Source: Lutraria lutraria
Lineage: Eukaryota > Mollusca > Bivalvia > Venerida > Mactridae
DNA: 64,000 nucleotides
Reading direction: 5' to 3'
Assembly (NCBI GenBank): GCA_964023205.1
Contig: OZ026844.1
Span: 30,427,326 to 30,491,325, forward strand
The position numbers were made by a program, and so were the translations under genes. The stretch's first letter is position 1, and the number at the start of each line of letters is the position of its first letter. The notes beneath the pieces are model-generated. The model did no database searches. It was not told the DNA's origin and saw nothing but the letters and a program-made list of their open reading frames with translations. Below, in pieces: positions 39,901 to 63,489 of this stretch.

Positions 39901-42900
39901 AACAAAGGCCTACTTTTGGGAAAGGCAAAATTTGGCCTTCATGACAGGTGGTCCTTATTTGGAGGTCATGTGTTCCAAATAACAATTACCGTTATTTACC
40001 GGATGGTCTTTATTTGGAGCAGTCACTAACACAGGTTTGGACTGTATGCTATAAAATTATTACCTCTAAAACCACAACCACTCTTCCATTAGCAAGGCCA
40101 CTCAACATGTGCGTCATGTGACCATAACCAGCTGGTGTTATCTTACACCCACCCTAAAATAATACAAACACATACATTTATAACAGTTTCCCATTATGTT
40201 AAAGTATTACACTAATTCGAGGGCTCAGCGCAAACACTGTCGTAACTTGTTCTTATTTCCATATGAGTTAAGACACTGTTGCGTTGAACCCTCGACTTGA
40301 TAGGATTCCTTAAAATGTCAGCCAAAATGCACATTTTTAAACAGTTTGAATTAGTCATAATTTTCTGCCATTTCACACTCTGTGGGTAAGCAATGCAGGC
40401 ATGGTGTATAGGCAATACCATATAATTATACAGCTATCCTAATGCTCTCAAAGCCCCCTAAATGATTTCACAAGTTTAGTAAAATGAAGAAAGAACATAA
40501 AGAAAAGAAGTATTTGTGAAACACGGATGCTCCCTAACACACCTTGAACTAGACCTATTAACCTTAAAATTGATAGGGGTCATTAACATGTGATGACCAA
40601 CCTCTCCAACCAAATCTCAGGACCTTAGGCCAAATCATTCTCTAGTTCTTGGTCGGACAAGGATTTTGTCTTTAAGGTCACCAAAAATACCCATTATAAC
40701 CAGCCACCTGAACATTGTACATTGTATAATACTGTGTATAGGTAAACTGACATAATTTGTTAAGATATTAAAAACAGAATGATTGCAATGAAATGTCAAT
40801 TTGTACCAATGGATCTCCAATGGCTGCATCAAATCCTGCTGATACTAATATCAAGTCTGGTGCAAACTGAAATTACACAATAAACAAGTTAATCAGACAT
40901 CTAAATCACTATTATGAGTAATCAGCAAACAAGCTATCAAAAAAATAAAAAATAAAAATCGATTTACGAGTGAGTGGACATTATGTGGGGTTTTCATGTT
41001 ACATCAACATTATGTAGCTGTACGTAGACAGTATCTGTTCATCACAAGCTAGGACATCAGAATACTCAGGATGGAGGTTCATATATACAGTACAACCTCT
41101 ACAGAGCAACACCCTGTGGGAGCTGTAAATATTGGCCGTTGTTTAGAGGTTGTTGCTCTACAGAGATTACATTTATAGTAAATATCAGCTTAGAGAAATT
41201 TTGAAGGTGTTGTTTATAGAGAGGTTGTTGCTCTACAGAGGTTAAATTTATAGTAAATATCAGCTTAGAGAAATTTTGGAGGTGTTGTTATAGAGAGGTT
41301 GTTGCTCTACAGAGGTTTAAATTTATAGTAAATATCAGCTTAGAGAAATTTTGGAGGTGTTGTTATAGAGAGGTTGTCGCTCTTACAGAGGTTAAATTTA
41401 TAGTAAATATTAGCTTAGAGAAATTTTGAAGGTGTTGTTATAGAGAGGTTGTTGCTCTACAGAGGTTATATTTATAGTAAATATCAGCCTAGAGAAATTT
41501 TGGAGGTGTTGTTATAGAGAGGTTGTCGCTCTACAGAGGGTCGCTCTGGAGAGGTTGTACTGTACATACATATATAATAAAACAGACCATTAAACAGGTG
41601 AACACAACAACAACATAATGATTCATTAAAGGATTCACAAATTAAATTTTATAGATACTCTTCAATACCATCAACACTTGTGTATAGGTCACACCTGTGT
41701 ATAAGATGCAGGTAAAAAATTAGCGGAAATCCACGGAAAAAATATATTCGTATGTCTAATACAAATATTTAAAAGCTAAAAAAATGGGACAAAAATCAAG
41801 AACAATTCATGGCAAAGATAACTGATAAATCCTGATACATATTCCACACAAAGTAGACTACTTCTACCTGATAAACCAGTAACTTACCTCATAAGCTATA
41901 GGCATGACAATCTGTTGGAAAGCAGCTAGATATTCTGCATCTCCTTTGCCACCCTGTAATATAAAAACAACTGCTCTATTCTGTTCTGTTCAATATAAAA
42001 TAGAATGAAACATGACATAGATACACTCAGTTGATCTGTTGCCCCATTTTGGAAGCACTGTAGGTAAAATGCTTATTATATAAATAAACAAACAAACAAT
42101 CAATTCTTTATTAGATGATTGCGTTGAATGTTAATTCAAACTGACATTTCAAAATTACAGCAGTGTACCCAAAATAAAAAAATGCTTCCAGTCCAGAAAT
42201 GAAGATATACGTTGCATTGCTTATTTTTTACAAGAAGGTTGCCTCTATTTACAGTTTAACAGAGGTGACTGTAACTCATGAGAGATGTAGTCTGAGTTTA
42301 GTTTGAGAAACAATACTTACATATTCCCATGGTATGTTCACATTAAAACCCAGTCCATCTTTAGTCCCTGCTCTATCATAATTCCCATCCACTGAGGTAG
42401 GATAAAAGAATCCACCGTCATAACGATGTAAGGATATGTATAGAATACTGAAATAGAAACAAATGCAAACTAGAGCTTTGTCAGAGAAGGGACATCTCCC
42501 TGCTGCCGCTTTCATTCCCAGTGATCCACTCATTGCAGAGTTATGTGCCCTTCAACTTAGCCATATAGTGTCATCTTCTAAAAAAGACCAGTGGGAAACA
42601 CTTATAAAATACCAATTCTTTCATTTGACCCTTAAAATGGCATTTTTAGCTTTCTTGTTTCCAAAGAAAAAGTCAATCTATTGTGATCACTGCAGCCTCT
42701 GCATCATGCAAAAACTTTAATGTAGCTCGTAACTCAGAAAGTAAAGAGGTAGCAACATAAAACTTCATAGGTGGATAGATCTCAACGAGGCGGGAACAGA
42801 CAGGCATTGCCATGGCTTGCGGCACTCTTGTTACGCTTGAAATTAGCAATATAACGCCTCCGAATCTCGAGAATTTGGTCAGATTTACACTTGCTTTAGT

Positions 42901-45900: not shown

Positions 45901-48900
45901 ACTATGTAAGAATAACAGGAGACCAGTCAGAGCTAAAAATATGTGTATTGACCATTTGAATTAATTTGGTAAAAATGTTTTGATCTATTTACAGGGTACG
46001 AGTGCCAGTAATACAGCAATATTGCATGTAACAAAAGGTCAACAACTATGGTTGGAAACATACATTGGAGATGGTGGTCTCAACTCCGGCTTTAACTGGA
46101 GATATGTCACTTTCTCTGGTGTTTTGTTATATTAGACAATATCTTCCAATAAAACTCAAGACAAATAAGTCACTTTGACTCATCACATGTAGATGACCCC
46201 TATTGATTTTTAGGTCAGTAGGTCAAGGTCTTACTATCCAGCTGGCCTATAGGGGGCATCCGTGTTTCACAAACACATAGTGATAATGATGATACTGGAT
46301 AATCTTTTGTCAATCTGATTTTCTCAATTGTACCAAACTTTTTTATATTGAAATACCAAATTTTGAATATTTCAACTTATAAGTCTGTTAAAATAAATGA
46401 TAATTGCACTGAATTCAGATGCTTTCAGGGGCGTAGCTTGACCAATAATGGTGTGTACGCAAAACTTCTGGCTTTATTAATACTTTCTTGTTAATGGTAT
46501 ATCTTTTCATTTGAAATTTTCCATTTCACAAAATGAACCTTAGTACATGTTATATTATTAATACATTTTGTATTTCGAGGGCTCAGCGCAACACTGTCGT
46601 AACTTGTTCTTATTTCAATATGAGTTATGACACTGTTGCGTTGAACCCTCGATTTGTTAATACTATTCAACAACATTAAGTAGCCTTTGTCTTAATGACA
46701 ATTTCAATTGTGATGTTAGCCAAACTAGATCCTTCGTTTAGCTCTATTTACATGTACTTATTTTGATTGGTCTAGAATATCTTATATATATAATCACATA
46801 ATGAACTTACCTGCCCAGATAATACAGAATCTATCACATTTAATGTGCATCCAGTGGCCATACGGGCACAGATATATGTCTCCTAAAATTACAATAAAAA
46901 CTACATCAGACAATCAATACAAAATATCATCATAATAATTATAATAATAAAGAATTTAATTATAGAGGCAAGGCAGTTAGGCTAGGCTGAATCTTCCATG
47001 CAAGCTTCTCAAAATGTAACAAATTTAATAAATACAACACTATCTAGGTTTACTATAAAAAAGCTTAAGAGATTAATGAAATGACAAAAAAATCACTTAT
47101 AATTCAAATTACAAAATAGTGATAGTACCAGTACTGTTGCTTTGGCTATGAGACTGCATAAGTTTTCCAGTAAGAAATATACAATTTTATACCTGTTTAA
47201 CTCAAATTATAATCAAACATTATGAAATATTATAACCAAAAGTCTCTGCTCAGACTGTAACTTCAGAATTTCAAATATACATCAAGCCTTAAGCAGTTGT
47301 TTATTTTGGTAAATGCAATTTCGTAATTCACGAAACACAAATGATGTACAGACCATCACAGGCAATCGGAAAACCGTTGTCGTGAAACTGTTGTTATATA
47401 CAAGTTTAAATAGATAATAATTTTTTTTGGTTAAAGCCTTAACTAAAGCTGTCACAGAGGTGACTAATAACCCCGCCGCCGCTTTGACACTAAGAATGCA
47501 ACAGTACACTATATGGCTAAGTTCAAGGGGACATAACTCTGCAATGAGTGAATCGTTGGGAATGAAAATTGTGTCTTGCACATGTACCCTTCATGGTGAT
47601 AACATTTCTTAAGTTTCATTGCAATTGCTTAAAGAATGTGGAAGTAATTCGCTCCACAAACTTTATGCTTACAAACGGACCGACAAACGACCGACTGACA
47701 GAGTGACTCTAATATACCCCTCTCAAACTTCGTTTGCGGCGTATAATAAGAACTTAAAGATATAATCGTTATTAAATTAAGCAGATTAATCGGATGACAA
47801 TTTTGGCAGATTTGCCCTTCAGTATTATAGATACATTGTCTCAATACGGCAGTACAGAATACATGGGTAAAGTACACAATCTTGGATATATCAATATTTA
47901 ACAATGTGATACTTCTGATTTACATACATTAATAATACAGTAAACCCCCGATTATTCAAAATTCCAAGCATCCGAAAAAATCATTTGGATAACTCATGGT
48001 TTCGAATGATTCATTTCAGTAATAAAATAATATAAAGTATTAATCGGCACAGGCTAAATTTTTTTTTTTTAAACTTTATTTTGCTGTTATCACACGCCCG
48101 TAGCCTGTAGTAATCGAGACCGTAGATCTTATTTGGATAATACAGGGTATTCGAATAATCGGTCGTCGAAAAATCTAGGTTTTACTGTACATATGTTTAT
48201 ATAGTCTCCATATAATCTTCTCCCGATAAAACTAGCAAAGTCAAAAACCTACCAATTCAAGCAAGAAGCAAAAAAATGGATCAAATAAGTTAGTTTTGCT
48301 TCAGAATTGAGAATTGTAGCAAATTGTTCCATGTATTGAAAGAAGAATAAATCATCTCACTTTTGACAGATATACAGAGTTAAATCCATGCTGTAACTTC
48401 ATCAATGTTTTAATATCTTTCTCTTCCAGGTCTTTCATAAACTGTATATGTCTCCGACTACAAATAATCATTAATAATCCTAGTCGATAAAAATTATAAA
48501 CTTTATTATGAAATATGGATAATTTTTCTCAACTGCATACAAACCTCTCCAAAGCAACACCCTTAGGGGGAGGCAAAGATATGTTGTTGTTGAGTGATTG
48601 TTGCTCTAGAGAGGTTAGATTTATAGCTAAATTGTGCAGACGGAAAATCATGCTGTTGTCGCAGGAAGGATGTAGCTCAAGAGAGGGCTGTTCTGGAGAG
48701 GTTGTACTGTATTATAAACTAAAGAATTCCAATATTACCCTAGTCAGTTTAAGATGTGGAAATAAGTAATATTTAAACAAAAAATCAGGCAAGGCATGTT
48801 CAATGATTTTTTTTGATAAGCCACCGCAAGCTTCACAAGATATCAAAATATAAATTTCACATTAGCTGGACTAAAAAGCAATGTGATGATAAAAAATACA

Positions 48901-51900
48901 AAATGTCAAACAGAAAAATACATTATGTAGCAATGCTATCAAAAATACCATAAATTACTAATCAATTATCAAAGCAGATTTTCACCCAAGGAAGCAACTT
49001 AATTGATATGTGAATAGAACAGCTCATACTTGAACTAGAAATAAATAAATGTAGCCAGAGGACACGAATGCCTCCTCCCCCCTGAGAGTTAAGTCAAAAA
49101 GGGGCCATAACTCCTGTGAAAATGTTTGGATTTTAATTGAAATCAAATTCGACCGGTAAAATATGAAACAAATCCATGAAATATTTCTCGAGTTATCGCT
49201 AGGATACAAAAATTTGAACAGACAAACAAGGGCAACAATTTATGCCTTTCCGCCATTTTGAATGGCAGGGGCATAATAAAAATATAACTTTTTACACTAT
49301 TCCCTCAGCCTAGTAACTGTTACTATGGTAATAATGGCAATATCTGGCTATGAAGATTACATTGGATTTAGTCACCAACCAATAAACCATCTTACATTAT
49401 TAAGAAACAGAGGAATGCCTTCATCAGGCAAAGTAAATTCTTCTTCAAACTTAACCATCTCTTCTGTAGTAAAATCTTCAGTCAGCTTCATGGTTTCAAT
49501 GAATGCTGGACTGATGATCCAAAATAAAGATATAATTTGTAATTTAGTAAATAACAGTCAAATCTGTGTTAGCGGCCACCTCTGAATAAAGCCACCCTCT
49601 GAATAAAGCCACCCACTGAATAAAGGCACCCTCTGAATAAAGTCACCCTCTGAATAAAGCCACCCTCTGAATAAAGTCACCCTCTGAATAAAGTCACCCT
49701 CTGAATAAAGTCACCCTCTGAATAAAGCCACCCTCTGAATAAAGCCACCCACTGAATAAAGGCCACCCTCTGAATAAAGGCCATACTATAAAAAACATTG
49801 ATTATTCAGAACAAATTGACTTCTAAACAAAAAGGCCAACTGCTGATAAAGGCCACATTTTGTCTTTCCCAAGGGTGGCCTTTGTTCACAGGTTTGACTG
49901 TATTTAATGACATACATATATTTCATAGTCAATAAACTTACTTATAAATTCAATAATACAATGTAAAGACTGTTGTTTTTGATGATACGTAATATTCCTT
50001 TAAAGAGAAAAATCATTTTAAAGTAACAACACTTTCTGACACAATAAAGAACTGGCAGAGTATTTAACCTTATTATATACCAAGGGTCCAGCATTTTCCA
50101 AATGGTACACAATAAGTTTATCCTTCAATGAATGAGAAGGGATGTATTATTCTGAGTAAAAATTCAAATGACAAAAAACAAAATTGACAGGCCCTCGACT
50201 CGAACCCCCAGGGGAAGCAAAGAAGAGGTTGACTACCTACAACTTGGAGAAGAACACTATTTATATAACTCTGGAACACTAGATGCAGAACTCCAGAGTC
50301 AGGGGATATTGTGGGGCGAGGCTAAGCGACAGGCACAAGATCAAAGAGGGTAGAAGACTGAGGTGAAGGCCCTATGTTCTGAAAGGGATGAAGAGGATTA
50401 AGTATGTAAAGTGAGTAAACAAAACCCGAAGCTAACAAATAAACAGAGTCATTATGACTTAAAGAGGACCAATTGTATAAGATGAGCCAGATTTGAAGCA
50501 TTTGACAAAATAATATTTCTAATACCAAACTGTTACCTGTGAACTAATTCTAATTCTTCAAACTCAGCAAGTCGACACTAAAATATGGAGAAGAATTATT
50601 TTAAATAAAATCAAAACAATTTTAGTTAGCACTACAGCTAGGGAATCATTTACTCCTGGCAAACAGATAGTCACATGCATAATCAAGATACAGGTGTACA
50701 TGTAAAATTCCAATAAAATCAGATCCACTAGGTATGCCTATAACACCACACCCAGTAATACACTCAGTTAACAATTGAATACGATACTTAGGTATGCTAT
50801 TCAAGAGTTAACAATTGAATACGATACTTGGGTATGCTATTCAAAAGCAGATAACAGAAACGATTTAAAAAAAATAAACATACAGTAAAACTGAAAACTG
50901 ACATCAACATTTTCATGGAAGGGTATGTATGGCCTTCCGCAACCGGGAATCGAACCCAGATAGCCGGGATACAAATCCAGTCATTGCTAACAGTTAACAT
51001 CAAAAACATTGGATTGATATGCTACCTTCAACTGTAGACATCTGTCCAGTAGACCTAACTCTCTGTGTTTGTCATAAATCCTGGAAATTCTTGATGGACA
51101 TTCTGGGTGACTGCAAAGAACAGACAAAAATTAGTATTTCTTAACAATACAAACAAGTGGGTACATTTTATCGATTACAAAATGCAATTTTGAACTATTT
51201 GACCTCCGTAAAAAATTGATGGTTAACCCCTCAATAAATGGTAAACTGATAATGTTCAGCACAACCTCTCCAAAGCAACACTCTTAGGGAGTAGAAATTA
51301 TGTTGTTGTTGAGAGGCTGTGGCTCTAGAGCGGTTAAATTAATAGTAAAATTGTGCAGTGGGACAAAATCATGCAGTTATTGATGGGAGGTTGTTGCTCA
51401 CGAGAGGGCTGCTCTGGAGAGGTTGTACTGTACTTAGGTTGAAGTCCAAATATCAGAATGATAATAAGATGGAATGTCTGACCTACTGTGTGCAATAATA
51501 TGTAAAGATAATACAAAACATAATTTATTGATTTAACTGATAATAAATGGTATCTTACCCTGGATAGTTTAATGCTGTATGAGCCTTCATTCCTTTATCA
51601 TAGACCAGACATGTCCTTAAATATATCAATATTTCAGTGTTAAGGTGACATTTAAAAAGTAAACATAATTCATTTATGCATAGTGGCCACAGTAAAAAAA
51701 ATCCTAATAATTTTACCATACCTCACATTTCTACCAAGGCAAATGAACTACATGTATATTGTATTAATTTTTTTATGTCCCCTTATTTTCTATGATACAG
51801 TGATGTAAGGGGAGTGGAATGAGTGTACAATAAGCCTCTGTCTATACAATAGTCAGATATCATCAAAATGTTCTCTGTGATATTTAACCAGCAGATTGTA

Positions 51901-54900
51901 TATTATTTCAGAATTTCAACTGAGTAAAATTTAATACTTATATGTAATAGATAAGGTGTAAAACAAAACTGTTTGTTTTCGTTACCCGACCTACTCCAAT
52001 TTTTCCCCGTGACCCTAGACTTTTTTATTAAGCCCTGAGGAAAGGTACATGCACAGTCTCACTTTTTAACTTTTTTGCAAATTTTCAAGAATAATAAAAC
52101 TAGAAATGTATCACGAGGACACATTTGCCCAGACTGAAAGCTAAGTCAAAAAGGGGCCATAACTCCTGTGAAAATGTTTGGATTTTGACGGAAATCGAAC
52201 TTGACCTGTATTTCATTATCATTCATCTTCATGTAAAATATGAAACCAATCCATGAAATAGTTCTTGAGTTATCGCTCGGAAACAAAAATTTGAACGGAT
52301 GGACAACAAAATTTGAACTGATATACTTTATGCCCTACCACCATTTCAATAGCGGTGGCATAAAAAAAGTTGCCTGCCCAACTTTTTAATGAGCATGTAA
52401 CCAGAAACAAACAAATTGTTTACACCTCACAGATAAACATTGAATACCAATCATTTTGTATTTACTACTCACCTATGTGGAGGTACAGATAGTGACGTCT
52501 CATTGATCAAGTCATCAATTATAGAGTTCCATTTATCTTCAGCTTGTATGTAATCAGCTTCTACCTTGTATGGATAGATGTAAGTCAGGTCATACTCTGC
52601 TGGTTTTGTTTCCTTGCTTTCAAATTTAATACCATCCCTATAGTGAAAAACAATACAATCAGAGAGTTATGCTACCCACTCGCTGAAAACACCATGAAAA
52701 TAAAATTAAATCTAAGTAAATAGCCACCAGTATGTCAAGACCACCGTGTGAACAGAAGCCCACCAGATCTACCAGTATCAATATTACAGTTACAGAACAG
52801 AACTTTATGAAAGACATGTACATAGTCATACAATATAAATAGCATACATTTTTTAACATCAAGTTTAGTAAAAACAAGAAGTGTTAGTGAAACAAGGTGG
52901 CCTTTAATCGGAGGTGGCCACTAACACAGGTTTGACCGTATATCAGATATAATACTTACTTAGGTGGATCACAGTTGACGCCATCGTAATCACAGATATC
53001 TTCTTCATCTAGTCTAGTTTGATAGCACAAACTCTTCCAATACGGTGCTATACATTTGATAGTATTCAAAATACTCTCTGTAATACTAAAGTCATCATAA
53101 TATTGTAACTATGGTTTGTTTTGCATGTTAATCTGTTATCAACTACATGTTTGTCTATATTTGGATGTATTTCCCGTCAAAAAAGTACATGTACATAAAT
53201 CATATATTATACCAGATTATAGTGCGATTTTATTAAACTGTCAAAGCTGAATAATTGCACTGCCCCTGAATACAACTATTTTTAGCTTCGTACTACAGTC
53301 GATAGTTTTCATATATTTTACTGTTAGAGAATGTCCCATTTCACATGTTTATATAATATTTTGTAGAGCATCGTTCGACAACTGGTACGATAAAAATTAT
53401 TGTAAAACTTATAAAAGTAATCAAATCTCATCTAAGCTAAAAAAAAATGCAAGCACTGACCATGAAACACAATACATCTCAATAAATCTTTATAAAAATG
53501 ATTTCTCAATCAAAGTACTGAAATTACTCATAGTTTTTGCACTTACTTCAACTTGCACTGCAACATGGATCCGGAACTAACTTAATACATAGTTCCCACA
53601 TCTACAATATTTACCTCCCTTGGCGGCCATCTTAGTTGGCAAATTCAACAAGCATTGATAGAAGATATTTATATTTTTGTTTTGATAATTCTTAATACAG
53701 AACATTTACATGTGACAACTACATTTTCTTAAACCTGATGTGCTTAGGGTCTTAACAACTTCATTATAAAGTTATTTTTTATAAATTAAGTTGTTTAATA
53801 ACCAATTTTCTGTTTTTTTCTATTAAGCGCATAAGAAATTTGCCAACTAAGATGGCCGCCAAGGGAGGTAAATATTGTAGATATGGGAACTATGTATTGC
53901 ATTGCGGGTGTAGAGAAACATAGTATTTTAGTCAGCATAAAAATTCATGCGCGCCAATGATTGACAGCTATAGAAATTTAACTATCGTTAAGTTTCCACA
54001 AAATTATAAAAGTGATGAAGCAAAGAGAAGATTAGAAGGGATGAAGGTTGTGTCAACACACCTGCATAGTTTTATACAACAGACAAAATATTTACCTGTC
54101 TGAAGGTTCAGCCAAGGGCTTTAACAATGGACAAGGATCCCCTAACAGTGACCTTAAACTCAGAGCAACACCTTCTGACAAAGACTTTATATTGTAACCA
54201 CCCTGAAATAATAATATAGCTAGTTCAGTAGGTAAATTATAACACAAGGGCCAATATGGCCCTATATTGCTCATCTAAGAACAACTACACCCTAAGGTCT
54301 TACATGTTCATTGAAACATGTTTAGGACTAGTGAAGAAATGAAGGCGCTAAAGTGTAAACAAGCTAAAATATAGCAAATTTTCTATGCCTAGGGCCCATA
54401 AATCTTGAAGTCCTAGTCCGATTCCACCCATAATCAATCAATCTTGTCCAAGACCTTAAGGTCATACACATTCACTGTAAATATTATTAGGATTGGTGAA
54501 GAAATGAAGATGCTAGAGTGTAAACAAGCCAAATATAGCAAATTTTCCAAGTCAAGGGCCCATAACTCTTGAAGTCCTATCCTGATTTCATCTATTATCG
54601 ACTTGACCAAGATGTTGTGGCCATATATATTGTGCCCAAGTTCGATGAAGATTTGTTAAGAGCTGTGTATGCTAGAGTGTAAACAAACTTGTGGACGGAA
54701 AACTGACACCAGACATTCATTGATCTAAAAGCTCACCTTATCTATCAGGTGAGCTAAAACCAGATTCGGAGGTACTATGCGAATTTAAGATAGGTGTCTC
54801 ATAAGCCAACTTGGCTGGCCCTTTCAATCGGGGTGACACTATAATAAACAAAACCTATTATCACCCAAACATACCTCAAGAACACAGCATACTCTTCCCT

Positions 54901-57900
54901 CAGCTAGTGAACTAATCATGTGAACAAAATGAGCGTAGGCTGCCGGTGTTACCATCATCTCACCCTGTTAAAAAACAAGCATGTACACAACTTAAATGAT
55001 CGGTCTAACCTAGCACCTCTCTCAAATCTGTTCTTACAATCTAATACAGAACAGAACAGAATAATTCATTCAGCAAGATATGATTTTAAGTGTCATCTAT
55101 TACATCAATGAATAAAAACAATACTACTAATTCTAAATGATAATCTATTAATTCTGATATTCACTGAAAAACTGATACTAGAAATAAACATCTATGCAGA
55201 GGCGGAGTCAAGGGTGGGGGCGGACCCAGCATGTGCCCCCCCCCCCTAAAATAGAAATGAAATATATAATTATGGTCCAGCATACATCCATATGGCTGCA
55301 TAGTTATATGTACGACAGAGGTGAAAGACATGTACAATCAAAATAGAAAATGCCAAGTTAAATACAGTCAATGCAAAGCAAATTATAAATATAAGCATGC
55401 GCTTGAAAGGGTCTTTAAAGTACTTGAAATTCTTATCATATTTCACGATTCAGTGAGTCCAGTATGTGAAAAAAGTGGCATAACTCTGATGCAAGTTTGA
55501 ACTATGAAACTGTGCAAGAAGCTGTAACTCAGCAGTCATTGGGATATCATGCTAAATTCATAAGCAAACAGCTTGGTGGTTAATGAAACACTTGTTTTGA
55601 ACAGTGCAAAACTGCTATCACATTGTAGACACAGAATAAAGGGGGAAAATATCTTAAATAGTTAAGCAAAAAACAAACCAATGTCTCACATGTAAATGTA
55701 GTTACAAAGAACCAAAATGGTTAATTTAAAAGTGAAATCTAAGGTGTTAGGCACATACCTCCCAACAAAATCTAACGAGCTTAGGCCTAATCTTTTTCTA
55801 GTTATTGCCCAGACAAGGTTTGGTTACAGATTGACCGACCAACATGAGCAAAGCAATATACCCCCTTTTCTACGAAAGGGGGCATAATTTAATAAATAAT
55901 CTAACCTTGTAGAAATACCATTTAACTGAATGACTACCATGTTGATAGAAAAATATAATCAGATGAAATCATTACGTTTGAGGGGTTGGAACTCAATCAA
56001 CCCTCATCAAAAATCCCTCTATTACCAGGAGTGCAACGATAAGGACTAGCCTGTATTGCGATATATTGCAATACAGTCAACCCATATTGCAATACGTATT
56101 GCAATACAGTGAAGTAATGAAAAACACTATAAATCTAAAGCCTTTTTAACTCAAGTGTTAGCCCTTTACCACATAGAGATATAACTCTATAAGGCAGTTC
56201 ATTCATATAGTGTAACCAGTAGATGGCTTATCAGTAACAATAGATATACTATCAGTTTTACTCAATGTACCAATCGAGGGCTCAGCGCAACACTGTGGTA
56301 ACTTGTTCTTATTTCAATATGAGTTACGACACTGTTGCATTGAACCCTCGCAATGTAGATTTATTTGAAAACTGCAAATAATCAATAGTTTGTTATTCTG
56401 AGGGATGAATCAGTCTTTGATGGTTCAAAACAACACTAAAAACTGTGCCTGCATTCATTCAATTCAATGGATTATGAGCTCAATTATTAAAGAAAATATT
56501 GCGTTACATGGATGCCATACCAGGGTACATATCAGCCCGATGCTGTATCACAATATACTGGTATATCGTTGCACCACTGTCTTATACAGAGGTAGTGGGA
56601 GTACATGGGATTCATTGATCATCCCTCAAGGTTTGAAATGTCATAATAATGCATTTAAATTTTGAATACTTTTACCTTGACATCTCCAATAGCTGCATCA
56701 TAGCCACTAGACACTATCACCAATTCAGGATCAAACTGTTAGTAAGATTATGTATACATTTATAGTACAAGACAATATCACCATAGAAACGAATATGTGG
56801 TATTTTCATATTTCACTTTTCAGTTTTTAATCATCTGAAACAAAATTTTAACAATTCACTCATACTGGCTTGTGAGAACACAAAATGTATTAAACTGTCA
56901 CTCTAAACACTAAACATGTCATTTTCAAGCAGTTTAAGTGTTTTTATGACCATCCAAAAACACTGATTTACACAAAGATATACTTTGAATGGTATAATGG
57001 TGTTTTAAAAAAAATTTGTTTGCCGTAACGCTACCTACTCACCAAAAAAAGTCCCAACCCAACTTTTTTTGGCCTCTCAGGTTTTTTAATTTTCATTAAA
57101 AATGGCATTCTGACATGTATTTTGGGTTAAAGATAAACAAAAAATTTTTTTTTTTTAAATTCCTACCTCCTTACCGGCTGAATATTTTCTGTGTCGGGCT
57201 ACAGCAAACAAATGTTTTTTTAAGGATGGCCTTAAGGATATGTTGCAAAATGTTTCCAAATGCTGAACAATTTTGTATCAACTGAAAACTATCTTGTATA
57301 AATTATGAAAATACCACAATATTCAGAAATAGAAACTAAGACAGAAAATGAAGAAGAGTGACTGTATGATAACTATATAGACAGCTATACACTAATAGAA
57401 TACCTCTGGACAACCTATAGTAGCGTCATATCCACACGATACAAAAACCAGTTCAGGGTTGTACTGAAACAATGGAGACATTGATAGTTTGTGGTTAAAA
57501 CATTATTTGCATTAGGAAATAAATCCGTCTTTCATGTTGCCATTTTTCAAATCCAATTTCTCTCAATTTATCAAAAGTTCTCTGAAAACCAGAATTCTTA
57601 GAAAACTGGACATTTAATCCAAACCAGAAGGGGCCCTGTTTTCATGTGTTTAACTGTACACCCTATAATAAAATGAGCAGTTAAAAAACATAACTGTTGC
57701 TATTTCATTTAAAAGCATTGGGTGTGATTTTCTAGGATTCCTGACTTACTCTTGAAATGATAAATACTGTTCAACAAATAAATTATAGATTTAAAATACA
57801 TACAGAAGTTTAGACCCACCACCATGGTCGAGTGGTTAAGGTCGCTAACTTCAAATCACTGTAACCTTTCACTGACAGAGGGTCATGGGTTCGAGTCCAG

Positions 57901-60900
57901 CAACCGACCATGTCTCTTTATGTAAGAAAGTAGGCAGATGCTTACGGAGGTTGATAGTCTAGTACTGGTTCTTCCCAGGAATGATGGTTAGGTGAACTGT
58001 CTGCCTCATATCACTCTGACTGTTAAAAAGGGGTGTAAAACCCAATGAAACAAACAAACATACAGAAGTATAGGATGTATATATTTAATCAAGAACGATT
58101 TAATGAATTTTAAAAAAACACAACACTACCTCATAGGCAACAGGCATGAGTACCTGCTGTAATACAGCCATATAATCACCGTCTGTCATTCCAGTCTGAA
58201 AATGCATTAAGAAGAGTAAAAGTGACATTAATTTTACATAAAAAAAGGTTTCACAGCCACGTAATATGTTCTTGACTGTTGATGTTAAAGCACAAGACAA
58301 AAGTTTGTTGGTTTCATAGGCCACTGTTTGTTTCCCAAACCCTCAAACCCTGTTTTATGCTAAAACCGATAAAAAAGAAAATCGGGATAAAAGGAAAAAT
58401 CTCCTAAATTGGATTTGTTTCTGCACAATAAGTGCCGTTTGTTAAATTTGGTGTGCTTAACAGTGTTAATTTTAGCAACTTTAACGCATCAATTATATCA
58501 CAGACACCTAGCCAAAAAGGCGAAATTCATGTTTTGGGTGTTTACATACTATCTTAGATCGCAGTTAGACTTGGTATGCTCTAGCTGGACGAAAGTTTAT
58601 ATTTCAGACTGGTTCACAGAAATTGATAAATTACCTTGTTAACTGGAACATTTATATTGTAACCCAGTCCATCACCATCACCAATATAATCATAGTCAGA
58701 TTCTCTTAAGTTAGGCCAGTAAGCTCCATACTCATAGCGATGTACAGAGAAATACAGTACCCTGAAATAACCAAACATACTAGTATATAAATAACACATA
58801 GCTTTGAGGGTAACAGTAAAAATGTCAGCCTGAGGAAGGTACTGTTACTCAAGGCCGAAGGCCGAGGGTAACAGTACTTTCCGAGGGCTGACATTTTTAC
58901 TGTTACCCACAAAGCTATGTGTTATTTATTTTATTACCCCAAACTTTTTTCAAGAAAATGCTTTTAAAAGATTTACTATCACTCATGTGACAATAAAAAA
59001 TACTGTGAAAAATTTACTGTTACCCTGTGACAGTAAAAAAATACTGTTAGAAATTTACTATTACCCTGTGACAGTAAAGAAAATGCTGTTGAAAATTTAC
59101 TATCACCCAGTGACAGTAAAAAAATGTTCAGTCACGTGGTACCATGTATGTAACAGTAAAAATGTTACCCGTTTGCCTATGGGAAATTAACATTACGAAA
59201 AAAGTGAGGGGTAATAATATATACTATACAGTAATGAAAACAATAGCTAATTTTACCATAAAATAAGACTCAATATCAGTCAGTTCATTTCAAAGAATAA
59301 TGCCTAAATGTATCATGAATTGTTATAGAAACACATTTTGTGATAACATTTTAACATTTGTAAAATTCATGCCGTAACAATTATAATTTTTGTTTAATAA
59401 AACTCAACGTAAGTACAGAAAAGTTATTTGCTACCAAGAAAGTGATGCCGACATTCAGCGCCCTCCTTGGTAATCTAATTAAACTATATTTTTACCCCAA
59501 AAATACATTTATTTTATTTGCATTGTGAATTTTCACCAAAAGTTGCCTATTTCGTGCCCCCCCCCCCCCCCTTTTACCAGCACCAAGTGTCTACCCTATT
59601 GCTTAAAAAAACTGATAACAGACCATGCTGCGAAATCAGGATCTATAAATGACGAAAGATTTCAACCAAACAGTTCTAGGTCTCACTGATATATCTTACC
59701 TCGGATCATTATAAAACATTTGTTGTGTAGCTTGACCATGATGGACGTCCCAATCCACTATCAGCACTCTGTAATACACAGGTATATAGGCATTAACTAG
59801 GGTTAAATACATACAATTATTAAAATCATCTAATTAATACTAAAAATAGGTACTTATTACAAAAAATGTCTATGGCTTGGTGTTTGTCAAATATTATTTT
59901 ATTATTGACAATACAGTCAACCCTGTGCTAGGGGCCACCTTCGAATAAAGGCCATCTCTAAATAAAAAACATTATTTCAAAAATTGTTAACAAAATGACC
60001 TACCAATAAAGACCACCTATCAATAAAGGCCACCTGTCAATAAAGACCACCTGTCAATAAAGGTCACCTGTCAATAAAGACCACCTGTCAATAAAGGCCA
60101 CATTTTGTCTTTCCTATGGGTGGCCTTTCTTCACAGGTTTGACTGTATCATATACAGGTAATCTACAAATGAATATACCTTTTCAATCCAAGTGTGTCAA
60201 TTGCATGTTTGGTTGCTATGGCAACATTGTTGAAGAAACAGAATCCACAAAATTCGTCATGCATTGCATGGTGCCCAGGAGGTCTAGAAATGAAAAAAAT
60301 ATATACAACATAACTGATTAGGTTGCCAAGTCATAAAAGTATACATTTCAAAATTGTATTTATAATACCGGTACATGTATGTCAGGGTTTGACAAATACA
60401 CATGTTTGCTCATACACGGTAATTACCAGTAGAAGTCGACTCAGAACAAGTTGGAATTGTCGTAAATAATGTTGAACTAATTAAAATTCTAAGCTGGATG
60501 AGTAGTCTGAAAATAAAATTATCCCGCCCAGAATATGCGTTTTGACCTTTATTCAATTATCTAAAAATACTGCCAGGTAAATTGTGTCAGTAGTTGACAT
60601 AAAATCAAAATTTTCCTACTTTCAAACACTGTATCACATGACAATGAGTTTTTTAAAATTATTTATAAAAGTGAAGCTTTCATGCATTACGGACTTGAAT
60701 TTTTAGACTTTTGTACATGTATTTCTATGTAACAAATTTGTACAATTACTGCTATGATCTATTGTGTGTAAATTGTTCAAAAAGAAAACAAAAAAGCTTA
60801 AGCATTATCACTCTCCCTTTAAAGAAACACACATACCTAGCTAGAACAAATCCATTTCTAACCTGAAACATAAAAATAGGTACCAGTCAACTTAATAATT

Positions 60901-63489
60901 ATTTTGGGCTAGATTTTAAATTGTTTACATAAAGAATTACTAAATAGTCTATAATTAAACAATTTAAGATTTCAGAGTATGAAGCTAATAAAGGTGTTTC
61001 ATTCATAATCTGTAATAACAGCGAAATACATATTCATTACATTAAAAAAACTTAATATATCATAAATGCATGAAAAACAATCTAACAGATTGATGTTCAA
61101 TTAAACCTAAAACCATGTAATATGAGTAAATATCTGAATAATATCAATCGTGAAATACTATATTTTCATTTATTTTTGTTGGGCTCAATTTTCGTGGTTT
61201 TCACTACTCTGCATGTAAATTTGTGTGGATTTGATTTCGGGTTGAGCCGAAATTAAATCCCCAACGAAAATTTATGATTCCACAGTAACTATCTGTGGCT
61301 CAGCTTTAAACTGCTTACTTTTTTCTTAAGAATCTGTTCCATCATTTCTATTGCACTTCCTGCACCCAACATGGCCGCCTGAAGAGTATCTTGGTGGAGG
61401 TAAATTGAGTCATACTTCTTTGAGAGTTCCATTCTTTCAGTTTTATTCATTTTGGTAGCAGTTTGTAAGATGTCAATAAGTTCTTGTGTTTGTAATGATA
61501 ATATCTGATCTTCTGTACAAAAATTTGCCTGAAACAAAAAATGTAACACAAATACCTATTAGTAAAAAATTGCCTAAAATAATTTAAAATAATATTTCTT
61601 AGCTATATCCCATGTATTTTAGTATTCTTATTTTTTTATATTTTTTTTGGTATTTCTTGCCTTATTATTATTATTTTTTCATTTATTTATTTTATTTTTT
61701 TAAATTTTATTGTAAAATGTAATCTTTATATTACCGGTATATTATTGTTCAGCACTTTTGAATGTGTTCTAGACATGAAAAGAGTGCTATATAAATATGG
61801 TAAATAATAAATACAAGACTGCTATGAGCAGCGCCAACACTTGTCAGTTCACCGCCTCCGAGAGATCTATCCACCTAATATGAAGTTTCATTAATGTATT
61901 TCCACAGAAGCAGACAGTATAGTGATCACAATAGTTTGACTTTTTCTTCGAAAAAAGACAAGCTAATAATTCAAAACAACCTTAGATTAAATCCCATATT
62001 TCAGCATGACCCTTTTAGGTTACCATTATTACATTCAACAAATCAATCATGATACCTAAAACATCATTTTCCAATTTCATGTTTTTCAATAACTCATACA
62101 TAGAAGAAACAAAGCTTAAAGCGACACTCAAGAAAGTTTTGCTTTTTTCAGTGCATTTAATGCTATTTTCTTTAAAACAATATTTCAGATACAGTACAAC
62201 CTCTCCAGAGCGGCCCTCTGTAGAGCATCAACCTCCCTATAACAACACCTTCAAAATTTTCCAGAATTGATATTTACTATTATTTCAACCTCTGTAGAGC
62301 AACAACCTCTAAACATTAGCCAATATTTGCAGCTCCCACAGGGTGTTGCTCTACAGAGGTTGTAGTGTACATGTATATACAGTGGCTGGTTCTCCTAACC
62401 AGTATTTACATGGTCAGTATTCTACCCAGTACTAACTTACCCTTCAAACAAGGAACCAGCTACTCTTCCACATAGAGAGGAAAATCAACACTTTTGTCAA
62501 ATTTTCACAGAAAGGTATGATCAGTATATGAGCCACTCAACAATGGCCCCAAATGAAAGTAACTATCGGAATAATTTTCAACAAAATCTTTCCTTACCTC
62601 AACATTTGTGCATCTCTCTACAAGGTTGAGCTCACAGCATCTTTTGTAGGGCTGTGTGACTCTTGCAGGCTTTTCTGGAAACTTTGGTTCCCAGTCGTTC
62701 TTTGGAAGTGCAAATCTTTCATCATATAAGAAACCAGTACTGAAATGAAATAAAAATAAATACAGTACAACCTCTCTTGAGCAACAACCTCCCTTTAACA
62801 ACAACATGATTTTTCCCACTGCACTATTTAACTATTAATTCAATCTCTCTAGAGCAACAACCTCTCTTCAACAACAACATGATTTGCACTATTTAACTAT
62901 TCATTTAACCTCTCTAGAGCAACAACCTCTCAACAACAACATAATTTGCTACTTCTGAAGGGTGTTGCTTTGGAGAGGTTGCACTGTACAGTCAACCCTG
63001 TGTTTGCAGCCTCGTCTAAATGAATGCCACCCTGTGAATAAAGGACATTTTAAAAAAAATTGTCCTTGATTATCTAGAACAAATTACCTCTGGTCAATAA
63101 AGACCACATCTGTCTTTCCAAAGGGTTGCCTTTGTTCAAAGTTTTGACAGTACATGTGAAACATAGCCTTATTTTTTACATCCAATATTAACATGTTTTT
63201 GGTTTTATAGACAAAATATATAAGAACTAGTATCCTGAAAAAAGTATACCTCACAGATCCTTGCATGTGACAAAAGCAGTTTCAATTATCACGGTACACT
63301 TTTACAAATAAAAAGTACAATTTAGTCAAATCATATGAAATGGTCAAAAAGATAAGTACTAATATTGTACTTGTTATAAATGAATAACTAAAAACAAAAT
63401 AACTGAATAGATGTTAATACATCTCCCAAACTTCACACATGTTCATCTACTTACCCATTCACATGTTCAGGTTTCTTCATCAACAAAGC
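30949..63489 (-). CDS. HDAC6: Histone deacetylase 6 (5' end not resolved)
   Basis: Cytoplasmic zinc deacetylase of alpha-tubulin and other proteins, with a ubiquitin-binding finger. Exons 5' to 3': 63489-63455, 62739-62598, 61528-61319, 60862-60837, 60283-60179, 59768-59700, 58761-58635, 58195-58130, then alternatives 57463-57404 or 56735-56676, 54964-54875, 54202-54096, 53073-52960, 52637-52473, 51615-51559, 51110-51026, 50577-50537, 49510-49396, 48441-48361, 46882-46811, 44635-44610, 43995-43891, 43038-42970, 42447-42321, 41953-41888, 40866-40807, 40153-40064, 39363-39260, cassette 38614-38549 (TAG), 38124-38056, 37183-37136, 32860-32707, 32573-32421, 31775-31647, 31005-30949. Phases agree throughout; about 1,000 residues. 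CD1 and CD2 both keep PPGHHA, DWDVHHG, GYDA/GFDA and GGYN. The C-terminus [11 protein letters not shown] matches the family end. It lacks the vertebrate SE14-type repeats. Upstream coding exons before 63489 are not identified. Confidence 0.95.
31267..31445. repeat. Family B miniature element
   Basis: From acagtcaaacctgtgaacaa to cactaacacaagtttga with 'aaaggccacc' units, inside the last HDAC6 intron. Confidence 0.7.
31647..32573 (-). other. HDAC6: HDAC6 ubiquitin-binding zinc finger (ZnF-UBP) exons
   Basis: Exons 32573-32421 and 31775-31647 encode [51 protein letters not shown] and [13 protein letters not shown]: the Cys/His set that binds three zincs in UBP fingers. The family binds the free C-terminal GlyGly of ubiquitin. 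It is joined to a last exon ending [11 protein letters not shown]. Confidence 0.93.
31798..32290 (+). repeat. Families D and E in tandem
   Basis: A family D block (acaagagctctgcaagcggt ... gatctatccacctatgaag) is followed by a family E block (ccccgccgccgctttgac ... cttcctttgcggg). The same D-then-E order is partly seen, inverted, at 42480-42830, so the two may be parts of one longer element. HDAC6 intron. Confidence 0.65.
32950..33190 (+). repeat. Dispersed repeat family F
   Basis: Contains 'tgatgaccaacctccc', 'cttaggccaaat' and 'gctcggacaatgtttggtta' blocks, shared with 40500-40670 and 55740-55890 and, inverted, with 46180-46275. Confidence 0.6.
33525..34045. repeat. Expanded family A array
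   Basis: The block 'caacctctccagagcggccctct' recurs at about 33530, 33605, 33693 and 33780 (75-88 bp apart), with caacaacctctcttcaacaa and tttttcccataatgaga between. It closes with gctttggacaggttgcactg. Several overlapping ORFs here are repeat translations, not genes. In the 4.3-kb HDAC6 intron. Confidence 0.85.
34046..36725. other. HDAC6 intron, no recognised feature
   Basis: Unique-looking AT-rich sequence within the intron 37135-32861. Open frames at 35.75-36.16 kb on both strands have no recognisable similarity and no convincing splice context. An alternative HDAC6 start cannot be excluded. Confidence 0.4.
36726..36826 (+). repeat. 5' fragment of the 506-bp TIR element
   Basis: About 100 bp nearly identical to the left end of 11100-11605 (caaggacttatatacataca ... 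ctatatactcggcaatgt region), then the similarity stops. It is followed at about 36860-36935 by a block also found at 505-585. Confidence 0.8.
37325..37562 (-). mobile_element. tRNA-derived SINE, reverse orientation
   Basis: Near full-length reverse complement of the SINE at 20263: B-box-like ggttcgagccc region, head ccgtggtcaagtgattaagg and body ccgaccatgtctctttatgt. In an HDAC6 intron. Confidence 0.85.
37848..38035. repeat. Family B miniature element
   Basis: aataaaggccat units end at caggtttgactgtac; a related copy follows at 38268-38450. Confidence 0.7.
38268..38450. repeat. Family B miniature element
   Basis: From ccgtcaaacctgtgtcattg to cacaggtttgacagta, with inverted ends and aaaggccac units. 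It lies between the stop-bearing cassette exon and the next HDAC6 exon. Confidence 0.75.
38549..38614 (-). other. HDAC6: HDAC6 66-nt cassette exon with in-frame stop
   Basis: Acceptor ttgcag, donor ggGTAAGG. Read in the phase of the exon before, it gives [20 protein letters not shown] then V and TAG (38551-38553), two nt before the donor. The ETI...QY segment matches the end of the deacetylase fold in vertebrate CD2. Its length is a multiple of three and the flanking exons also join in frame (phase 2 to 2), so skipping it gives a full-length protein, while including it ends the protein right after CD2. A sequence error making the stop cannot be excluded. Confidence 0.65.
38765..38945. repeat. 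Family A miniature element
   Basis: acagtgcaactctctagagt ... gctttggagaggttgcac: same structure as 15459-15640. Confidence 0.7.
39890..40045. repeat. Family B miniature element
   Basis: agtcaaacctgtgaacaaag ... actaacacaggtttggactg, inverted ends. Confidence 0.7.
40217..40295. repeat. 78-bp foldback hairpin, copy 3
   Basis: tcgagggctcagcgcaaaca ... gttgcgttgaaccctcga, one base longer than the other copies; HDAC6 intron. Confidence 0.88.
41090..41565. repeat. 75-bp tandem array within a family A element
   Basis: The phrase gaggttgttgctct (or ttgtcgctct) starts at about 41145, 41221, 41295, 41370, 41445 and 41519, a 74-76 bp period, with 'atttatagtaaatatcagct' in each unit. The array is bounded by family A ends (acagtacaacctctacagag and ggagaggttgtactgtac). 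Confidence 0.9.
42480..42830 (-). repeat. Families D and E fragment, reverse orientation
   Basis: ttgtcagagaagggacat... through 'cattgcagagttatgtgccc' (E) and 'aaagaaaaagtcaatctatt ... aggtggatagatctca' (D), inverted relative to 31798-32290. Confidence 0.55.
44447..44524. repeat. 78-bp foldback hairpin, copy 4
   Basis: tcgagggcttaatgcaacag ... gttgcgctgagccctcga. Same orientation as copy 1. It is inserted at the 3' end of a family D repeat. Confidence 0.88.
44919..46135 (+). CDS. Secreted coiled-coil C1q-domain protein
   Basis: Complete two-exon gene: 44919-45791 and 45995-46135 (GT..AG, phase 0), 337 residues. It starts at the ATG at 44919 ([20 protein letters not shown]), a typical signal peptide; the codon before it in the open frame is TTG and is not used. 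Residues ~40-190 form a charged coiled coil with heptads ([19 protein letters not shown]) and a duplicated ~30-residue segment ([20 protein letters not shown] and [20 protein letters not shown]). LREKRQ follows, a dibasic R-x-K-R site. The C1q head runs from [10 protein letters not shown] through [19 protein letters not shown] to [12 protein letters not shown]1q heads trimerise; in bivalves this family is large and acts as lectin-like immune recognition proteins, though the ligand here is unknown. The gene lies antisense inside an HDAC6 intron and looks intact. Confidence 0.93.
46148..46153 (+). other. Polyadenylation signal of the C1q gene
   Basis: AATAAA only 13 nt after the stop codon, implying a very short 3' UTR that ends well inside the HDAC6 intron. 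Confidence 0.6.
46575..46652. repeat. 78-bp foldback hairpin, copy 5
   Basis: tcgagggctcagcgcaacac ... gttgcgttgaaccctcga; the least degraded copy, opposite in orientation to copy 4 on the far side of the C1q gene. Confidence 0.9.
47425..47750 (+). repeat. Dispersed repeat family E
   Basis: ccccgccgccgctttgacac ... tgacagagtgactctaatat ... cttcgtttgcggcg, closely matching 31985-32288. Confidence 0.75.
47939..48190. repeat. TIR miniature element (acagtaaaccccc ends)
   Basis: Left acagtaaacccccgattatt and right 'gaataatcgg...ggttttactgta' are inverted copies. Inner 'catccgaaaaaatcatttgg' and 'cttatttggataat' blocks also pair. HDAC6 intron. Confidence 0.7.
48535..48712. repeat. Family A miniature element
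   Basis: caaacctctccaaagcaaca ... ctggagaggttgtactgt. An 84-codon ORF here is repeat sequence. Confidence 0.7.
49045..49275 (-). repeat. Dispersed repeat family G, reverse orientation
   Basis: agttaagtcaaaaaggggcc ... atttatgcctttccgccatt, inverted relative to 25690-25930. Confidence 0.65.
49556..49900. repeat. Family B element expanded into a 17-bp array
   Basis: Between the family B ends (cagtcaaatctgtgttagcg and cacaggtttgactgta), the unit 'tctgaataaagccaccc' is repeated 13 times from about 49577 to 49792, with variants ending gtcaccc or ggcaccc. Confidence 0.9.
51258..51432. repeat. Family A miniature element
   Basis: agcacaacctctccaaagca ... ctggagaggttgtactgta. Confidence 0.7.
51985..52420. 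repeat. Repeat family H interrupted by a family G copy
   Basis: The family H left part (gttacccgacctactccaat ... aagccctgaggaaagg) and right part (gcatgtaaccagaaacaaac) are contiguous in the copy at 13760-13925. Here a family G element (about 52100-52365, inverted) sits between them. Confidence 0.6.
53213..53907. repeat. Composite palindromic element
   Basis: The outer part (tatagtgcgattttattaaa ... gctaaaaaaaaatgcaagca) is an inverted relative of the element at 820-1385. Next to it, arms at 53584-53646 and 53837-53899 are ~63-bp inverted repeats with one mismatch (cctcccttggcggccatctt core) around a 190-bp loop. Confidence 0.8.
54235..54765. repeat. Dispersed repeat with ~120-bp internal units
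   Basis: The sentence 'gggcccataa(a/c)tcttgaagtcct' and 'gctagagtgtaaacaagc' recur about 150 bp apart in a degenerate tandem arrangement. It ends cagacattcattgatctaaa and ...ggtgagctaaaac. HDAC6 intron. Confidence 0.55.
56274..56350. repeat. 78-bp foldback hairpin, copy 6
   Basis: tcgagggctcagcgcaacac ... gttgcattgaaccctcg; lies about 325 nt downstream (transcript sense) of alternative exon A. Confidence 0.88.
56676..56735 (-). other. HDAC6: HDAC6 CD1 alternative exon A (ends Lys)
   Basis: A 60-nt exon, phase 0 to 0, with acceptor taacag and donor gtaaaa. It encodes [20 protein letters not shown]. Spliced to GEMMVTP it gives IGDVK-GEM, keeping the Lys of the vertebrate CD1 sequence GDPKGEM. 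It lies 668 nt downstream of exon B in the transcript. Using both would duplicate a buried catalytic strand, so only one is expected per mRNA. Confidence 0.88.
57404..57463 (-). other. HDAC6: HDAC6 CD1 alternative exon B (ends Glu)
   Basis: A 60-nt exon, phase 0 to 0, with acceptor tttcag and donor gtattc. It encodes [20 protein letters not shown]. It contains the catalytic GYDA aspartate and is spliced to GEMMVTP, giving IGCPE-GEM. It is 12/20 identical to exon A at 56676-56735 and aligns with CD2 exon 40866-40807 ([20 protein letters not shown]). The position after the 'IG-x-P/V' turn is Glu, where known CD1 enzymes have Lys. Confidence 0.88.
57810..58057 (+). mobile_element. tRNA-derived SINE with 12-bp target duplication
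   Basis: Head ccatggtcgagtggttaagg, B-box-like gggttcgagtcc, and the family body. Direct repeats ACATACAGAAGT flank it at 57798-57809 and 58058-58069. It lies between HDAC6 exon 58195-58130 and alternative exon B, in reverse orientation to the gene. Confidence 0.9.
58788..58932. repeat. Long palindrome beside an HDAC6 acceptor
   Basis: Arms of ~60 nt (taaataacacatagctttg ... gtactgttactc and its inverted copy) form a hairpin with a short aggccgaaggccg loop. The palindrome starts 27 nt upstream, in transcript sense, of the acceptor of exon 58761-58635. Confidence 0.88.
58955..59165. repeat. ~45-bp tandem repeat (ttactgttaccctgtgacag)
   Basis: About four degenerate units of 'aaatttactattaccctgtgacagtaaaaaaatactgt' type follow the palindrome and share its 'taacagtaaaaatgt' motif, so the two form one element. 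The 67-codon ORF across it is a repeat translation. Confidence 0.85.
59910..60150. repeat. Family B element with 17-bp array
   Basis: Ends acagtcaaccctgtgctagg and cacaggtttgactgta; the interior unit 'caataaagaccacctgt' is repeated about six times (about 59995-60100). Confidence 0.88.
61156..61287. repeat. TIR miniature element (actgtggaatcat ends), opposite orientation
   Basis: tactatattttcatttattt ... aaatttatgattccacagta, a shortened inverted copy of 4311-4522. It ends 32 nt from the HDAC6 exon 61319 donor. Confidence 0.65.
62190..62370. repeat. Family A miniature element
   Basis: acagtacaacctctccagag ... ctacagaggttgtagtgtac with inverted ends. Confidence 0.75.
62762..63150. repeat. Family A element abutting a family B element
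   Basis: Family A (acagtacaacctctcttgag ... tttggagaggttgcactgt, to about 62985) is followed without a gap by family B (acagtcaaccctgtgtttgc ... ttcaaagttttgacagta). Confidence 0.75.

Follow-up and report, generated by a model that had tools for sequence, protein, structure and literature searches.

Introduction

The first catalytic domain (CD1) of vertebrate HDAC6, as described for zebrafish and human, carries a lysine (Lys) at its gatekeeper position, and Lys is the only state in the vertebrate HDAC6 entries that we compared. HDAC10 instead carries a glutamate (Glu), described as its gatekeeper for cationic acetylpolyamines, and the same study reports that the gatekeeper site alone reversed HDAC10 specificity (PMC5454378). 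Here we describe an HDAC6 gene of the bivalve Lutraria lutraria in which the CD1 exon that supplies the gatekeeper is doubled, one copy (8A) ending in Glu and the other (8B) in Lys. It lies in a 64,000-nucleotide (nt) stretch of the genome, hereafter the window (assembly GCA_964023205.1, contig OZ026844.1, positions 30,427,326 to 30,491,325). The window gene shares its domain, its zinc ligands and, in the 8B form, its Lys gatekeeper with vertebrate HDAC6 CD1, while the Glu gatekeeper of the 8A form is common to HDAC10. In contrast to the window CD1, HDAC10 contains a two-residue insertion in loop L1 (the PACE helix), and its second domain is noncatalytic, whereas the second catalytic domain (CD2) of the window gene keeps its catalytic motifs in a two-domain HDAC6 layout. 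We consider it fairly probable that the tandem Glu and Lys exons are spliced in one at a time and switch the CD1 pocket between an HDAC10-like form and a form suited to C-terminal acetyl-lysine.

Mutually exclusive exons, as presented in two catalogues (PMC3228551, PMC3923563), are likewise tandem, homologous, of equal length and phase, and bounded by compatible splice sites. The pairs in the window differ in that each carries a catalytic-site gatekeeper; the main texts of the two catalogues mention neither HDAC6 nor deacetylases, and insect HDAC6 may possibly be listed in their supplementary sets of predicted exclusive exons. Among bivalve enzymes, the alternative oxidase of oyster also has an exon that is duplicated and alternatively spliced; it is a different enzyme, and the portion compared describes no gatekeeper switch (PMC5589949). 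Tandem exons that exclude each other and gatekeeper residues of HDACs are each known, and their combination is new as far as searched: targeted searches of an open-licence literature library turned up no report of HDAC6 exon duplication or exclusive splicing, nor of such isoforms in invertebrates. To our knowledge, there is no earlier case of splicing setting the charge at the gate of a deacetylase.

Two tandem copies of a CD1 exon differ at the gatekeeper

The HDAC6 gene occupies the minus strand of the window, within a genome of 728.5 Mb in 71 contigs, with its CD1 exons at 62739-54096 and its CD2 exons at about 51.6-39.3 kb. The top PDB matches of both deacetylase domains are HDAC6, and relatives align across CD1 and CD2; the closest of the listed proteins (the best 120 of 5,724 matches) is Mactra antiquata HDAC6, with a CD1 identity of 83%. 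The original prediction had placed in this gene two tandem 60-nt exons in phase 0-0, identical at 12 of 20 residues and each with the catalytic Asp, and their coordinates, AG/GT borders and stop-free frames were all confirmed; at the DNA level the copies agree at 37 of 60 bases. Numbering the exons in this analysis from the first CD1 exon (E1) to E10, we obtained the following CD1 features:

62598..62739, minus strand: CD1 exon E1 (reading frame; relatives align)
61319..61528, minus strand: CD1 exon E2 (reading frame; relatives align)
60837..60862, minus strand: CD1 exon E3 (reading frame)
60179..60283, minus strand: CD1 exon E4, PPGHHAM, catalytic His pair (relatives align)
59700..59768, minus strand: CD1 exon E5, DWDVHH, two zinc ligands (relatives align)
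58635..58761, minus strand: CD1 exon E6 (relatives align)
58130..58195, minus strand: CD1 exon E7, upstream partner of 8A/8B, ending at 58130 (relatives align)
57404..57463, minus strand: exon 8A, Glu version (...GCPE), third zinc-ligand Asp and gatekeeper Glu
56676..56735, minus strand: exon 8B, Lys version (...GDVK), third zinc-ligand Asp and gatekeeper Lys
54875..54964, minus strand: CD1 exon E9 (GEM...), downstream partner of 8A/8B, beginning at 54964 (relatives align)
54096..54202, minus strand: CD1 exon E10, GGYN, catalytic Tyr (relatives align)

To relate these exons to known structures, we anchored the zebrafish HDAC6 numbering on H82 from PDB titles. With this anchor F202, D323, K330 and Y363 fall on the expected letters and K330 directly precedes G-G-M; exon 8 includes the zinc ligand D323, and its final residue aligns with the gatekeeper K330, in agreement with the earlier identification. 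At this K330/E274 site 8A ends in Glu, as does the HDAC10 gatekeeper. The third zinc-ligand Asp is present in both copies, and the CD1 catalytic set is complete (PPGHH, DWDVHH, GYDA in 8A and 8B alike, and LEGGYN). Furthermore, the window CD1 aligns gap-free with zebrafish HDAC6 CD1 through L1, with Phe at the human F105 position and, as in zebrafish, Phe at the Y225 position. The Pfam Hist_deacetyl family matches in one stretch with either 8A (276.6 bits) or 8B (280.2 bits), and in two stretches with both exons (288.3 bits) or with neither (231.3 bits).

Differences between 8A and 8B are distributed 8/3/12 over codon positions 1/2/3; nonsynonymous divergence (dN) is 0.27, and synonymous divergence (dS), which was not computable (-1), is taken as saturated. 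When neutral evolution was simulated until the observed 8A/8B DNA identity was reached (20,000 runs per direction), at least 12 identical residues remained in 0.0006 and 0.00045 of the runs in the two directions, indicating that protein-level conservation of this extent is unlikely under neutrality (about 5e-4). Identity in the flanks (20 to 100 nt) is 39-48% upstream and 27-30% downstream. A third copy of exon 8 was sought in the window and rejected, as other six-frame matches score at most 29, whereas 8A, 8B and the CD2 exon each reach at least 55.

The intron separating 8A from 8B measures 668 nt, as originally given. Because the reading frame is open in all four joins (333 amino acids with 8A, 333 with 8B, 353 with both and 313 with neither), frame does not enforce the choice at exon 8. 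Long-range intronic pairing was also rejected as a means of exclusion: the best duplexes, at -34.1, -34.2 and -29.1 kcal/mol, are not above shuffled sequences, which matched them in 3, 1 and 10 of 12 cases. For splice sites to hinder each other sterically, 668 nt is a long distance. Any exclusion at exon 8 is consequently not frame-based, nor likely steric, the latter in line with the earlier view. At the splice sites themselves, the 8B acceptor has the lowest pyrimidine fraction among the 11 exons (0.53) and the 8A donor is the third weakest by U1 duplex score, so that a join of 8A to 8B would couple two poor sites.

Glu and Lys exons recur in molluscs and arthropods

We took up to 120 of the best matches from each of three protein searches. 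Among the best 120 of 5,724 matches, the gatekeeper is Glu only in 79, Lys only in 31, both in tandem in nine and neither in one. Glu is the commoner form among the listed HDAC6-like proteins; the predicted Lys-Glu difference at the gatekeeper is real, and on these counts Glu is no exception to Lys as the norm. Four more tandem models appear in the best 120 of another search, giving at least 13, and the third search contributed 11 further proteins, eight with Glu, three with Lys and none tandem. The tandem models come from bivalves (Mactra, Ruditapes, Ostrea, Saccostrea cucullata and Pinctada), gastropods (Bulinus, Gigantopelta and Batillaria) and arthropods (the dragonfly Ladona, the psyllid Diaphorina, the moth Phthorimaea and the amphipod Trinorchestia), together with one record under a plant name whose sequence is arthropod-like (P0063). 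The paired exon, for which bivalve and other mollusc HDAC6 genes had been proposed as the place to look, is found there and in arthropods as well, and hence is not bivalve-specific.

All 13 tandem models place the Glu copy before the Lys copy, and the 20-residue copies abut exactly. Together with the window, the Glu copies carry Cys18 and Glu20 in 14 of 14 cases and the Lys copies Asp18 and Lys20 in 14 of 14, while the zinc-ligand Asp is kept in all 28 copies. The Lys copies end in a GD.K-type motif in 13 of 14 cases and in AD.K in one, and position 19 varies. Compared by eye with their Mactra counterparts, 8B is identical at 18 of 20 residues and 8A at 15 of 20.

Departures from these endings were also seen. 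P0129 (Bradysia odoriphaga) ends in GCAI, and P0243 ends in GDAE, a mix of both signatures. In Branchiostoma floridae P0137, counted among the Lys entries, a stretch of CD1 occurs twice, once with a Met and once with a Lys gatekeeper, the two lying 31 residues from each other; a further duplication at this site is one possible cause, an error in the model another.

The displayed gatekeeper state does not follow gene ancestry

We considered whether Glu and Lys mark two paralogous genes, an interpretation that species pairs and the CD1 tree reject in general, with Babylonia as the exception. In ten close species pairs displaying opposite states, identity is 83-98% upstream and 73-97% downstream of the exon and only 12-15 of 20 residues within it. 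Mytilus edulis (Lys) and M. californianus (Glu), for instance, agree at 224 of 230 residues upstream, 68 of 70 downstream and 15 of 20 in the exon; the other pairs are Haliotis rufescens (Lys) and H. rubra (Glu), Anopheles stephensi (Glu) and A. funestus (Lys), Atta (Glu) and Mycetomoellerius (Lys), and six more. An eleventh pair consists of two Babylonia genes with an upstream identity of 80%. On a FastTree phylogeny of CD1 built with exon 8 left out (109 single-state rows, many weak forks), the Glu/Lys state changes 26 times, compared with a mean of 26.3 in 300 shuffles, 154 of which gave 26 or fewer. The displayed state therefore scatters as in shuffles and shows no relation to gene ancestry, which is the pattern to be expected if the records sample one isoform from genes that hold both exons.

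Isoform labels are associated with the gatekeeper state (Fisher test of X1/X2 against Glu/Lys, 5e-7; 67 hand-read labels). Isoform X1 is Glu in 23 records and Lys in two; X2 is Glu in eight, Lys in 23 and both in three; X3 and above are Glu in six and Lys in two.

Babylonia areolata has two HDAC6-like genes, P0135 and P0149, of which one encodes Glu and the other Lys, so that here the two gatekeeper states are perhaps divided between gene copies.

A second exon pair in CD2

CD2 keeps its catalytic motifs (PPGHH, DWDVHHG, GFDAA and GGYN), and its counterpart of exon 8 is a single 60-nt exon ending in Leu, as had been anticipated. The original observation held for the CD1 pair and missed a second one, C2a/C2b, in CD2. 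The features of this region are:

50537..50577, minus strand: CD2 exon preceding the second pair
49396..49510, minus strand: CD2 exon C2a, one alternative of the second pair (115 nt), encoding Ile-Pro at N530-S531 (proteins of Mercenaria and Dreissena align)
48361..48457, minus strand: CD2 exon C2b, the other alternative of the second pair (97 nt), encoding Asn-Ser at N530-S531 (proteins of Mactra, Ruditapes and Mya align)
46811..46882, minus strand: CD2 exon following the second pair (relatives align)
40807..40866, minus strand: CD2 homologue of exon 8 (60 nt), one copy, final Leu (L712 site)
31644..32573, minus strand: span in which exons match relatives' C-terminal zinc-finger region

The CD2 L2 loop of Mercenaria X1 and Dreissena X1 differs from that of Mactra, Ruditapes and Mya, and the window holds both versions in the same phases, the five relatives aligning to C2a or C2b according to loop type. 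Since both lengths are 1 mod 3, and inclusion of both or neither leads to stops or a shifted frame, the frame is kept only with exactly one of the two exons. A global alignment of C2a with C2b from the window scores 17, whereas none of 300 shuffles exceeded 4, which marks the two exons as homologous; the cross-species comparison of Dreissena C2a with Mactra C2b scores only 4. At the zebrafish N530-S531 site C2b encodes Asn-Ser and C2a Ile-Pro, and by this alignment the swap replaces the CD2 gatekeeper Ser531 with Pro. Two studies bear on S531, which one calls a unique serine gatekeeper in CD2 of HDAC6 (PMC12993782) and the other ties to HDAC6-selective binding (PMC13266995). Among the fetched proteins, a narrow motif scan finds the C2a type only in Mercenaria and Dreissena; Dreissena, Mercenaria and Mactra all belong to the superorder Imparidentia. 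A motif scan of other HDAC loci for class-I-like loops as a source of C2a returned one unhelpful match.

Related genes and other features of the window

A second two-domain class IIb-like gene lies on contig C14 of the same genome, at about 11.86-11.87 Mb (loci L010, 2116-2175 on the minus strand, and L009). A paired exon was sought in this paralog and rejected: between its exons 7 and 9 stands only a Glu exon, FSPDLVLVSAGYDSAIGCPE, at the place of exon 8. Fish HDAC10 has two additional residues in L1 that the paralog lacks, and in the tree the paralog groups with Nucella P0012, both on long branches. No HDAC10 with the L1 insertion was found among the loci read, other genome matches not being formally classified.

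Relatives bearing the UBP-type zinc finger PF02148 align to window 31644-32573, of which the single piece 32391-32573 gave no Pfam match on its own. Elsewhere in the window, 8258-8650 (minus strand) belongs to a gene for a scavenger decapping enzyme, of which it encodes the N-terminal portion (44.4 bits against Pfam DcpS); by eye, further exons are likely down to about 4 kb. In the intron before 8A, about 57970-57810 (minus strand) looks by eye like a tRNA B box in complement, such as a short interspersed element of tRNA origin would carry; an ARAGORN tRNA scan and an Rfam scan of the window gave no match.

Discussion

The alternative use of 8A and 8B originally proposed is one that we also rate as likely, with splicing likely to include either exon singly. 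By the precedent of HDAC6 and HDAC10, the choice would change the charge at the rim of the CD1 pocket and hence the preferred acetylated substrate: for the 8A form the predicted preference is for acetylated substrates with a positive charge, acetylpolyamines among them, and for the 8B form it is C-terminal acetyl-lysine. This prediction, with its Glu side drawn from the HDAC10 study (PMC5454378), replaces the contrast between internal and C-terminal acetyl-lysine that had been suggested. As for how exclusion might be imposed, a trans-acting regulator working on the poor sites, the 8B acceptor and the 8A donor, would be our guess.

Several observations weigh against such a switch. Neither of the enforcing devices sought at exon 8, frame and competing RNA pairing, was found. 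All 15 lgn/ena entries among the best 120 of 5,724 matches are Glu; one of them, P0141, has 1141 amino acids and comes from a contig 3,679 bases long, and we read contigs of this kind as spliced RNA, although the database does not say so. Lys-only entries are mostly annotated models, although P0020 (jgi) and P0014 (lgn), listed in another of the searches, are Lys as well, and the use of Lys in RNA is less well supported than that of Glu. The 13 listed tandem models, three of them labelled isoform X2, join both exons. The CD1 alignment lacks the two-residue L1 insertion of HDAC10 type (P(E,A)CE helix), so that the Glu form has the HDAC10 gatekeeper without the second determinant, which makes its full polyamine activity doubtful. 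In a fly model, N8-acetylspermidine was reportedly not detected (PMC9310527), which weakens the polyamine reading in fly. The missing insertion and the fly result slightly lower our confidence in the switch. Finally, when the final three residues are left out, cross-phylum identity is 11.2 of 17 for Glu-Glu, 10.3 for Lys-Lys and 10.4 for Glu-Lys comparisons.

The alternative that survives best, though we judge it unlikely, is that exclusive splicing is real and Glu or Lys hardly affects substrates, for instance because CD1 acts mainly as a scaffold or because its true substrate makes no contact with the gatekeeper. What CD1 of HDAC6 does biologically is described as not yet clear (PMC12993782), and the absence of the HDAC10 insertion fits this reading too; yet the final residue is invariant within each copy class while its neighbour at position 19 varies, and the reversal of HDAC10 specificity at the gatekeeper site alone also speaks against it. 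Less probable still is that in practice transcripts contain the Glu exon alone, with the Lys exon included seldom if ever. This is what the uniformly Glu lgn/ena entries and the pyrimidine-poor 8B acceptor would suggest, whereas Lys is the only form in 31 of the 120 listed models, the catalytic Asp and the characteristic endings are preserved in the Lys exons, and 8B is nearer than 8A to its Mactra counterpart.

We find it very improbable that transcripts regularly contain both exons, in which case a strand and the zinc-ligand loop would occur twice in CD1, perhaps as a CD1-off form. The tandem models and the open frame are consistent with such inclusion, but the models are weak evidence, since gene predictors chain compatible exons. 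In the predicted structure of tandem P0018, moreover, the predicted local distance difference test score (pLDDT) is below 50 over 343-372, which covers the zinc-ligand loop and the second copy, while the single-copy Glu protein P0012 has a mean pLDDT of 90.4 and matches HDAC6 CD1 and HDAC10 structures; the low score of P0018 may also reflect its thin alignment of 25 rows. We take tandem inclusion to be an annotation artefact or a CD1-off form. An assembly artefact or dead duplicate, for which only short length and modest DNA identity speak, is barely credible given the differing flanks of the two copies, the recurrence of the pair in gene models of other genomes and the rarity of such conservation under neutral decay.

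With one-at-a-time use of the Glu and Lys exons as the preferred reading, the distribution of the two endings bears on their origin. GDPK is found in the vertebrate HDAC6 entries P0005, P0030 and P0042 and in the cnidarian entries P0038, P0059 and P0060, and Hydra P0069 shows GDPL; Lys is thus more likely to be the earlier state, and GCPE more likely to have been added in protostomes, with the reservation that the cnidarian proteins have a single domain and are possibly not orthologous to CD1. Over all 20 residues, cross-phylum identity is 13.8 for Glu-Glu, 12.6 for Lys-Lys and 10.5 for Glu-Lys. As the like-with-like values hardly exceed the mixed one outside the final residues, the case for a single origin lies in the signature residues, the order and the exact borders, from which we infer that the pair probably arose once, before molluscs and arthropods split; parallel origin or later mixing is possible.

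The CD1 and CD2 pairs in combination could yield up to four enzyme forms. We put forward tentatively, as a wider idea that is possible and distinctly less secure than the CD1 switch itself, that protostome HDAC6 is programmable: an ancestral pair shared by molluscs and arthropods would toggle CD1 between a polyamine-type and a C-terminal acetyl-lysine gate, Imparidentia would have added a frame-locked toggle at Ser531 of CD2, four substrate profiles would result, and the Glu form may replace HDAC10 where it is missing. The natural gatekeeper pair, present in insect models too, provides a genetic handle on CD1 function. If the switch is real, annotating one HDAC6 isoform per protostome gene would hide part of the enzyme's chemistry.

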